Positions 55,958-56,861 of a DNA stretch of 64,000 nucleotides are shown here, in pieces. The stretch spans positions 1 to 64,000 of the forward strand of contig JABUMY010000004.1 in NCBI GenBank assembly GCA_013327885.1, in the 5' to 3' direction. Below the pieces are notes generated by a model. It was not told the DNA's origin, made no database searches, and was given only the letters and a program-made list of their open reading frames with translations. The DNA comes from Flavisolibacter longurius. Lineage in GTDB: Bacteria > Bacteroidota > Bacteroidia > Chitinophagales > Chitinophagaceae. Positions within the stretch are counted from its first letter, which is position 1. Every line of letters begins with the position of its first letter. A program made the position numbers and the translations under genes.

Positions 55958-56428
55958 CTATTCAGGTGTCACGGTAATGGTGCGGTTCAGGCTTTCTTCC
56001 AGGGAGATAAAGGTTTCCGTTCGTTCAATGCCTTTGATCTTTTGCAATTCGTCGTGCAGTACAGTGCGGAGTTGAACAATGTCCTTGCACACCACTTCGG
56101 CAAAAATGCTGTAGTTGCCCGTGGTGTAATTGAGCCGAACGATCTGGGGGATCTTGCGCAGGTCTTTGGCCACGGTGTCGTAAAGCGAACTTTTTTCCAG
56201 GTATACACCTATAAACGCAATGACGTCGTAGCCTAGCTTTTTCAGGTCAACATTGTATTTCATACCGCTGATCACGCCGGCTTCCTGCAGCTTTTTAATG
56301 CGAACATGGATGGTGCCGGCCGATACGTACAGCTTTTTCCCGATCTCAGCGTACGAAATGCTGGCATCGTGCATCAGTTGCTGGATGATGTTGAGATCCA
56401 ATTTGTCAAAATTCAATTCGGAGGCCAT
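55958..56428 (-). CDS. Lrp/AsnC-family transcriptional regulator
   Basis: 156 residues. N-terminal helix-turn-helix (~8-60: 'LDLNIIQQLMHDASISYAEIG', 'TIHVRIKKLQEAGVI' in parts) and C-terminal RAM ligand domain (~70-145: 'IGVYLEKSSLYDTVAKDLRK', 'GNYSIFAEVVCKDI'). The ligand is usually an amino acid. It is the first gene of an operon with flippase, chain-length and polymerase genes, so it probably regulates envelope glycan export as well as itself. A 17-base palindrome lies at 56458-56474, 30 bases before the start codon. Confidence 0.92.
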   Translation of the reverse strand: MASELNFDKLDLNIIQQLMHDASISYAEIGKKLYVSAGTIHVRIKKLQEAGVISGMKYNVDLKKLGYDVIAFIGVYLEKSSLYDTVAKDLRKIPQIVRLNYTTGNYSIFAEVVCKDIVQLRTVLHDELQKIKGIERTETFISLEESLNRTITVTPE

Positions 56429-56503: not shown

Positions 56504-56532
56504 TTGAAAACTGTAAAACCATTCTATCTTTG
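56504..56532 (+). promoter_or_regulatory. Promoter of the tRNA-like RNA gene
   Basis: TTG at 56504-56506, an 18-base spacer and a perfect TATCTTTG at 56525-56532. The only structure downstream on this strand before a terminator is the RNA at 56627-56797. Transcription would start near 56540, giving a 5' leader of about 85 bases to be trimmed. Confidence 0.6.
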
Positions 56533-56626
56533 ACTTGTCAAGTTCATTGAAACAGTCAGTACGGAAAAGAAAAATGGAACCAGCCGGTAACCATTTGCTA
56601 ATTGCCTGTTGCTGATTGAACTATAC

Positions 56627-56797
56627 TGTGGGGTGATGAAATTTTTGGCAGACATGCCCTCTTGTCTCGGGGGTGAGGATCACAGGATAAACTAAGTGTA
56701 GAGCCGACGTTACTTTTGGTAAGGCCGACCGGGGTTGACCACTAAACTTTGCACTTACGCTAACTGCCTCGTGGAGGTTCGAACCCTCCCCCTACAG
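56627..56797 (+). ncRNA. tRNA-like RNA with giant variable arm (~171 nt)
   Basis: Acceptor stem TGTGGGG (56627-56633) pairs with CCCTACA (56790-56796), one G-T pair, then G as discriminator. T8 follows; D stem ATG/CAT (636-638/653-655) with a Leu-type loop containing GG and ending AGA; anticodon stem CCCTC/GGGGG (657-661/669-673) with the 7-base loop TTGTCTC; T arm GGAGG-TTCGAAC-CCTCC (773-789) in exact register with the acceptor. The variable region (674-772, about 99 nt) is closed by GAGG/CCTC and contains an 11-bp helix, 693-703 with 747-757, plus a small TTAC/GTAA hairpin. A promoter lies upstream and a terminator 23 bases downstream. Anticodon position reads GTC, but base 37 is T, unusual for a decoding tRNA. 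No CCA is encoded. Not tmRNA by any motif I can see. Confidence 0.7.
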
Positions 56798-56819
56798 CTT
56801 CTTCTCATGTGTTTATTTT

Positions 56820-56861
56820 GCCCGCAACCGATTGCTTCTCAATTTATTGTGGGCTTTTTTT
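56820..56861 (+). terminator. Terminator of the tRNA-like RNA gene
   Basis: GCCCGCAA (56820-56827) pairs with TTGTGGGC (56847-56854), one G-T pair, with a further small ATTG/CAAT stem in the loop, followed by seven T residues. Confidence 0.85.

Follow-up and report, generated by a model that had tools for sequence, protein, structure and literature searches.

A conserved tRNA-like RNA of Bacteroidota with the features of a candidate carrier for asparagine synthesis

We found that the DNA analyzed here, a 64,000-nucleotide stretch of Flavisolibacter longurius contig JABUMY010000004.1 (hereafter the window), carries, at positions 56627-56798 of the plus strand, the gene for a tRNA-like RNA that is complete and has a variable (V) arm of 96 nt, as read from the sequence. 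The RNA belongs to a conserved family that has no Rfam match, and by its sequence it combines a Leu-like body with the strong determinants of aspartate identity and the acceptor pair of tRNA-Asn. We propose, with a probability of roughly 0.78, that it is a dedicated, non-decoding tRNA acting as carrier for asparagine synthesis: AspRS would charge it, GatCAB would amidate the bound aspartate, and asparagine would then be released. In the sampled genomes we observed a conserved structure, the identity elements, an AsnC-type neighbor, co-occurrence with gatB and exclusion of true AsnB; the identity elements together with the gene co-occurrence point to an Asp-to-Asn carrier. The features of the locus are as follows.

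55958..56428, minus strand: AsnC-type regulator of 156 aa, divergent from the RNA (Pfam HTH_AsnC-type and AsnC_trans_reg)
56504..56532, plus strand: Bacteroidota-type promoter, TTG-N18-TATCTTTG (read from the sequence)
56541..56548, plus strand: boxA-like leader element AGTTCATT (a loose motif upstream in 30/147 copies, counted with no control)
56627..56798, plus strand: tRNA-like RNA, spanning U1-G73 and the first C of CCA, which is encoded (match to covariance model R1)
56627-56633/56790-56796, plus strand: acceptor stem, 7 bp with one G-U (read from the sequence; covariation)
56627..56633, plus strand: 5' strand of the acceptor with U1-A72 (148/149 distinct relatives) and G2-C71 (149/149)
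56636..56655, plus strand: D arm of Leu type, ATG / AAATTTTTGGCAGA / CAT (stem 56636-56638/56653-56655, GG in the loop)
56657..56673, plus strand: anticodon arm (stem 56657-56661/56669-56673; loop TTGTCTC at 56662-56668)
56675..56770, plus strand: long V arm with GAGG/CCTC, CAG/CTG, GATAAA/CTAA internal loop, 11-bp outer helix and tip (covariation)
56675-56678/56767-56770, plus strand: closing V stem GAGG/CCTC, 4 bp (read from the sequence)
56683-56685/56764-56766, plus strand: 3-bp V helix CAG/CTG, flanked by the closing stem and the outer V helix (read from the sequence)
56693-56703/56747-56757, plus strand: outer V helix, 11 bp (read from the sequence)
56731-56742, plus strand: V-arm tip motif GGGGTTGACCAC (read from the sequence)
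56773..56789, plus strand: T arm GGAGG-TTCGAAC-CCTCC (second pair varies: GC, UA, GU, AU, CG, UG)
56790..56798, plus strand: 3' strand of the acceptor, discriminator G73 (56797) and C74 (56798), both in 149/149
56820..56861, plus strand: intrinsic terminator, a GC stem followed by a T run (read from the sequence)

Each tRNA arm and the outsized, structured V arm thus lie in register, as the initial annotation had claimed, and its 11-bp helix within the GAGG/CCTC stem could be read back from the sequence. In the window copy G34, U35 and C36 occupy 56664-56666 and are followed by U37 and C38; U33 is present. The GATAAA/CTAA internal loop separates the 3-bp stem of the V arm from the outer helix. 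The promoter at 56504-56532, which follows the Bacteroidota-type consensus, and the terminator flank the RNA, in agreement with the earlier description of an independent RNA gene. Upstream motifs were counted in 147 of the 149 distinct copies described below, 2 having too little flank, and TAnnTTTG occurred within 131 nt upstream in 88 of the 147, a count that has no background rate beside it. A boxA-like element of the AGTTCTTT type comes after the promoter in some family members, an arrangement shared with stable RNA operons, and by this resemblance the one at 56541-56548 may serve as a boxA-like leader.

Because the single-sequence fold of the window copy was no better than that of shuffles (z -0.11), single-sequence folding was dropped as evidence, and it is covariation that places the tRNA-like structure beyond chance. 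We scored three alignments of distinct sequences, A1 (n=23, plain MAFFT), A2 (n=56) and A3 (n=100); the latter two were fitted to the covariance model and hence lean towards it, and each includes one weak non-family match (55.6 and 24.5 bits, respectively). In all three, 95.1-100% of cells pair in every helix but the outer V helix, where pairing was 42.8% in A1 (an understatement, the register being off), 65.1% in A2 and 74.4% in A3. Covariation scores were 0.308, 0.438 and 0.401 (A1, A2 and A3), compared to shuffle means of 0.152, 0.185 and 0.180; 0 of 500 shuffles matched the observed score in any alignment, and a slid-partner control reached at most 0.185. Two of five measures in the 23-sequence A1 were matched by 34/500 and 45/500 shuffles and were not decisive. 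The cloverleaf helices are backed by this covariation, and among relatives the ATG/CAT D stem is swapped for ACG/CGT, TTG/CAA or GTG/CAC. The compensatory changes whose lack would have argued against the initial annotation are strong in all three alignments, and its view of an intact RNA rather than a pseudogene is supported.

A match to a known Rfam family, which would also have counted against the initial annotation, did not turn up. ARAGORN called neither a tRNA nor a tmRNA in the window, Rfam had no hit that reached the gathering score across the window and, between 56500 and 56900, none of relevance even at E<=10, and an RF00005 scan of the own genome, in which 150 of 266 candidates were scored, listed 48 tRNAs without it. 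A tmRNA identity was rejected, since the RNA drew no tmRNA call and no Rfam match and its anticodon and D arms are complete. So was an acceptor lengthened to 8 bp by a -1:73 pair: position -1 is C or T in 129/149 copies but A in 20. The own genome holds a single copy, which matches covariance model R1 with 156.4 bits, the window copy being among the sequences from which the model was built.

Among 58 relatives, own genome counted, blastn found the RNA in 27; G041 and G054 were added by pattern, giving 29 genomes with the RNA (RNA+) and 29 in which it was not found (RNA-). A pattern of the D and anticodon arms, which allowed up to 3 mismatches and may miss diverged copies, was positive in 176 of the 298 order genomes, with up to five matches in a single genome and 0 in the reversed-pattern control columns. 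A covariance-model search of 395 genomes of the phylum separated two populations: 40 genomes (counted from the table) with matches of at least 90 bits and, among the remaining matches listed down to ~50 bits, sequences of at most 63 bits and ~85 nt, the size of ordinary tRNAs, which the raw tally of 353 takes in. Named carriers include Chitinophaga, Niabella, Terrimonas, Pedobacter, Dyadobacter, Spirosoma, Algoriphagus and Cyclobacterium, as well as Saprospiraceae MAGs and one Ignavibacteriales MAG. We found no description of this RNA in the open-licence PMC literature, bioRxiv not included, which leaves its absence in print unproven; the accessible part of PMC8007984 holds nothing on it.

After duplicates and sequences of at most 100 nt were left out, 149 distinct copies were kept from 194 rows. 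Their length ranges from 110 to 212 nt and their V arm from roughly 33 to 135 nt; the tRNA helices and inner V stems are constant, and the distal arm is variable. Searched for inside a set stretch only, GAYAAA occurs in 99/149 copies and CTAA in 142/149, while the tip motif GGRTYGACCAY is found in 67/149, across several families, and also in viral copies. Some loci carry tandem pairs in which a short-arm copy is joined to a long-arm one, as though the two forms cooperated (L009, L017, L024, L025, L030 and L181, with L017 and L024 being one place, and likewise L009 and L025). The samples of 80 named and 80 viral loci were each drawn from at least 120 stretches matched by a pattern holding GTCTCG and are for that reason unfit to test conservation of the anticodon loop, so that the loop figures given below lean on loci outside the 80 fetched by this pattern; A2 is freer of this choice, yet includes loci first found by the order pattern.

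With respect to charging, the consulted portion of a review (PMC9976931) lists G73, G34, U35, C36 and C38 as strong Asp determinants and G10 as a bacterial one. The RNA carries the entire strong set and does not conserve G10: G73, C74 and C38 are invariant in the 149 distinct copies, as are U35 and C36, and G34 occurs in 147/149 (hence GUC in 147/149), while position 10 is A in 93, U in 35 and G in 21. This variation at position 10 counts against the carrier reading, as does the base at 20a described below. L086 and L108, both outside the 80 loci fetched by the GTCTCG pattern, have UUC and CUC, respectively, at 34-36; these are Glu rather than Asp anticodons. According to the same portion of that review, amidation of Asp-tRNA is conferred by U1-A72 and prevented by G1-C72 with U20a (PMC9976931). 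Both features of a GatCAB substrate are present: U1-A72 in 148/149 copies, and no U20a, since the 20 commonest D-loop types, GG-C-A-G-A/C, have an extra base at 20a that is A in our numbering. The own tRNA-Asp has G1-C72, and U1-A72 recurs in two of three tRNA-Asn predictions, in tRNA-Gln and in one doubtful prediction among the 45 distinct tRNAs of the own genome. All 45 of these predicted genes encode C74 and 5 encode the whole CCA, the 3' ends having been placed by a simple pairing script that misplaced at least one tRNA-Ser; with its own C74, the RNA obeys the 3' end rule of its host's tRNAs. The own genome also has a normal tRNA-Asp and one AspRS that reads as bacterial-type, of 614 aa. 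The positions that vary are -1, 26, 32, 33 and, less so, 37, where U stands in 141/149 copies.

Compared by eye with the own tRNA-Leu, the RNA shares with bacterial tRNA-Leu and class II tRNAs the D arm, U44 (in 137/149 copies), the 4-bp V stem, GU before the T stem and the T arm; it differs in having G73, GUC, C38, U1-A72 and a longer V arm with extra helices and motifs. The suggestion of the initial annotation that a Leu-like tRNA had been repurposed is supported.

The U1-A72 pair led us to look for GatCAB, using gatB. In the 298 order genomes, gatB was present at E<=0.001 in 170/176 RNA+ vs 52/122 RNA- genomes (Fisher 2.5e-27, kinship ignored); this threshold gives 222 gatB genomes, of which 217 exceed the cut-off. 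G138 and G144, counted as gatB+, have weak matches only, and the six RNA+ genomes without gatB are G124, G147, G185, G209, G239 and G300. Corresponding figures were 68/69 vs 1/16 in the own family and 52/53 vs 2/33 in family f18. Since the Fisher values ignore kinship, it is addressed only by the within-genus contrasts described below. A search of the gatB locus found no copy of the RNA there.

Among the 58 relatives, gatB was found in 28/29 RNA+ vs 11/29 RNA- genomes, glnS exceeded the cut-off in 44 and asnS in 55. When only the 44 with glnS are considered, gatB is present in 26/27 RNA+ vs 2/17 RNA- genomes. As glnS is over cut-off in 27/29 RNA+ relatives, GatCAB would be without its usual job there; the nine other RNA- gatB+ relatives have no glnS over cut-off (one of them, G001, is a 78% complete draft) and are explained by the usual use of GatCAB. 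The exceptions are G045 and G055, which have glnS and gatB while the RNA was not found, and G002, which has the RNA and glnS while gatB was not found. G021 and G047 lack gatB as well as a glnS match over cut-off.

We then related the RNA to asparagine synthetases. TIGR01536 was too wide to serve as a test for AsnB, scoring over cut-off in 53/58 genomes; every one of the five without such a match is RNA+ (p 0.05), a number too small to carry weight. In its place we used a true AsnB from the RNA- genome G015 (541 aa, open at the 3' end) at E<=1e-100. True AsnB was found in 0/176 RNA+ vs 15/122 RNA- order genomes, and gatB was not found in any of the 15; identity to the query is 65-77% for 14 of the proteins and 50% for the one from G277. 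True AsnB is present in 8 of the 9 RNA- genomes of the own genus: the genome that supplied the query, and seven others whose proteins are 87-91% identical, two of them cut short at a contig or region end. In 24/29 RNA+ relatives there are AsnB-family proteins that exceed the TIGR01536 cut-off; six of these, taken from four RNA+ genomes, were compared, and over the longest piece their identity is 28-33%. asnA showed a weak anti-correlation, with 6/176 RNA+ vs 13/122 RNA- genomes (one of the 19 below cut-off), and neither asnA nor true AsnB was found in 96 of the 122 RNA- genomes.

Within genera, the RNA and gatB switch together against AsnB in g1, g42, g87 and g129 and against asnA in g10 and g42. 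In g43 the RNA and gatB are lost and neither AsnB nor asnA was found, which is also the case for two RNA- members of g129; in g87, asnA occurs in RNA+ and RNA- members alike. Genus g1 contains two rule-breakers, G001 (gatB+ RNA-) and G002 (RNA+ gatB-). The own genome has gatB, glnS and asnS over cut-off as well as AsnB-family proteins of the 28-33% kind; asnA and true AsnB were not found in it.

The regulator beside the RNA belongs to the AsnC branch of the Lrp/AsnC proteins, having an HTH and a ligand domain and being nearest to AsnC: among proteins of solved structure it is closest to E. coli AsnC (2cg4, 116 bits), compared to 43 bits for Lrp (2gqq). A protein of its cluster is present in 29 of 41 regions, representing nine families, and is divergent from the RNA by order and strand (in three of the 29, L097, L104 and L107, the position of the RNA comes from the model); small ORFs that lie between the two in several regions are probably spurious. 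The regulator was missing from all six f18 regions and both f19 regions, and also from three f28 regions where the RNA is in tandem and from a single f1 region. Among the 80 named loci, some of which end too near the RNA for the regulator to be judged, it was found within 2 kb in 52, and every match was divergent. Apart from the regulator, no protein cluster occurs in more than 8 of the 41 neighborhoods.

An AsnC relative (37-40% identical) is also divergent from asnB in 3 of 17 AsnB neighborhoods, drawn from 17 of 23 AsnB genomes, with 65-85 bases between matched ends, and from asnA in 0 of 3 asnA neighborhoods. The same kind of regulator thus faces either the enzyme or the RNA. In E. coli, asnC and asnA form a divergent pair. 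The arrangement described here is alike in that an AsnC-type regulator is divergent from an asparagine-synthesis gene, and it is unlike that pair in that the divergent gene is the RNA gene, or asnB in three relatives. The divergent protein is a probable asparagine sensor.

Copies of the RNA are also found in viral contigs. A full covariance-model match of at least 72 bits was obtained in 78 of 80 IMG/VR loci (L323-L402), the other two being cut by the locus end, and 19 of the 80 hold at least 5 ARAGORN tRNAs. G73, C74 and U1-A72 are present in 68/68 distinct viral copies (taken from the best 78 of 150 rows), and some viral short forms of 92-106 nt are without the distal arm. By tblastn, no AsnC relative was detected in the 80 viral loci, and distant blastn of annotated phages gave no match to the RNA. 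One reading is that the viral copies may be a metabolic aid for asparagine.

tRNAs serve as amino acid carriers outside translation in several settings, among them the non-decoding cell-wall tRNAs and tRNA-Glu in tetrapyrrole synthesis. Their use as carriers is alike, but they feed other products, and we know of no dedicated carrier tRNA for making a free primary amino acid. The chemistry predicted here resembles tRNA-dependent asparagine synthesis by a non-discriminating (ND) AspRS, tRNA-Asn and GatCAB in Deinococcus, Thermus and Bdellovibrio. In contrast to the Deinococcus-type system, in which a decoding tRNA-Asn is mischarged by the non-discriminating AspRS, the RNA described here is separate and looks unfit to decode; with Asp determinants and the GatCAB pair on such an RNA, a discriminating AspRS could suffice. 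The genome setting may be alike as well, in that AsnRS, GlnRS and GatCAB would be present and AsnA/AsnB absent (PMC4206432, in the part available). The same part reports 18 genera with AsnRS, GlnRS and GatCAB but no asparagine synthetase, Bacteroidetes being among the clades, and takes tRNA-Asn as their likely carrier (PMC4206432).

We considered whether the RNA might instead be charged by SerRS or LeuRS as a class II tRNA. Its D arm and V-arm base are of Leu type by eye, and G73 with a long V arm partly fits SerRS according to the accessible part of PMC9976931. In that part, however, A73 is crucial for Leu, whereas the RNA has G73, and the bacterial Ser set names C72, where the RNA has A72, and no anticodon base, although 34-36 and 38 are almost invariant here (PMC9976931); we regard charging by either enzyme as very unlikely. 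Still harder to sustain, and in our view close to untenable, is a decoding role as a minor tRNA-Asp or a recoding tRNA with an odd V arm. GUC is kept in 147/149 copies and U33 in 126/149, the T and D arms are normal, and the RNA sits among tRNA genes in viral contigs. Position 33 is nevertheless C, G or A in the remaining 23 copies, and that U33 is not kept makes decoding unlikely; 37 is a pyrimidine in 148/149, the own genome has its normal tRNA-Asp, and decoding gives no reason for the linkage to gatB or AsnB. The doubt that the initial annotation had cast on ordinary decoding is supported.

Two further alternatives accept charging with aspartate or asparagine. In one, which we consider unlikely, the charged RNA would donate its amino acid to another acceptor (a peptide, a lipid or the cell wall) and would not be a source of free asparagine. 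The identity elements and gatB evidence fit such a donor equally well, and there is precedent in the non-decoding tRNAs of cell-wall synthesis; true-AsnB exclusion and the AsnC neighbor, on the other hand, point to asparagine supply, and besides the regulator no protein cluster recurs in more than 8 of the 41 neighborhoods. In the other, to which we give slightly less credence, the RNA is regulatory: its charged state would report Asp or Asn, or it would sequester AspRS, with AsnC controlling the RNA. The AsnC neighbor, the conserved non-tRNA internal loop and tip motif, and the RNA's own promoter and terminator agree with this, but a regulatory role by itself leaves unexplained the close tracking of gatB and the absence of true AsnB. 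The initial annotation's proposal of a regulatory RNA, a synthetase sink or a decoy is unsupported as worded, identity elements and co-occurrence pointing to the Asp-to-Asn carrier; a regulatory role keeps a small probability.

On the preferred reading, that of an Asp-to-Asn carrier, the RNA would undergo the same processing as the tRNAs of its host, and its CCA end, begun by the encoded C74, would be completed. AspRS would read G34, U35, C36, C38 and G73 and load aspartate, and GatCAB would convert the bound Asp to Asn owing to the first pair, U1-A72, which the RNA shares with tRNA-Asn, whereas tRNA-Asp has G1-C72. Asparagine would then be set free by spontaneous or enzymatic deacylation, and the divergent AsnC-type protein would govern synthesis of the RNA. 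A GUC tRNA that bore asparagine would insert it at Asp codons, so the RNA would need to be barred from the ribosome, presumably by the long V arm and the loosened positions 33 and 37. A Leu-like body, an outsized V arm and a loosened anticodon loop are what would be expected of an RNA that is seen by AspRS and GatCAB and kept off the ribosome.

We give even odds to a broader form of this proposal, in which a large part of the Bacteroidota makes free asparagine only on this RNA, as an obligate cofactor under AsnC control, the V arm, through its GATAAA/CTAA loop and its tip GGGTTGACCAC, serves as a module for docking or release that perhaps speeds deacylation, and the phage copies are a metabolic aid. 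If the carrier reading is true, a widespread bacterial RNA family would be a metabolic carrier, neither decoder nor regulator. This would explain why GatCAB is kept beside GlnRS and AsnRS in many Bacteroidota and how many of them can do without asparagine synthetase, and it would mean that a Leu-like tRNA body can gain Asp charging and Asn conversion with the code uncorrupted.
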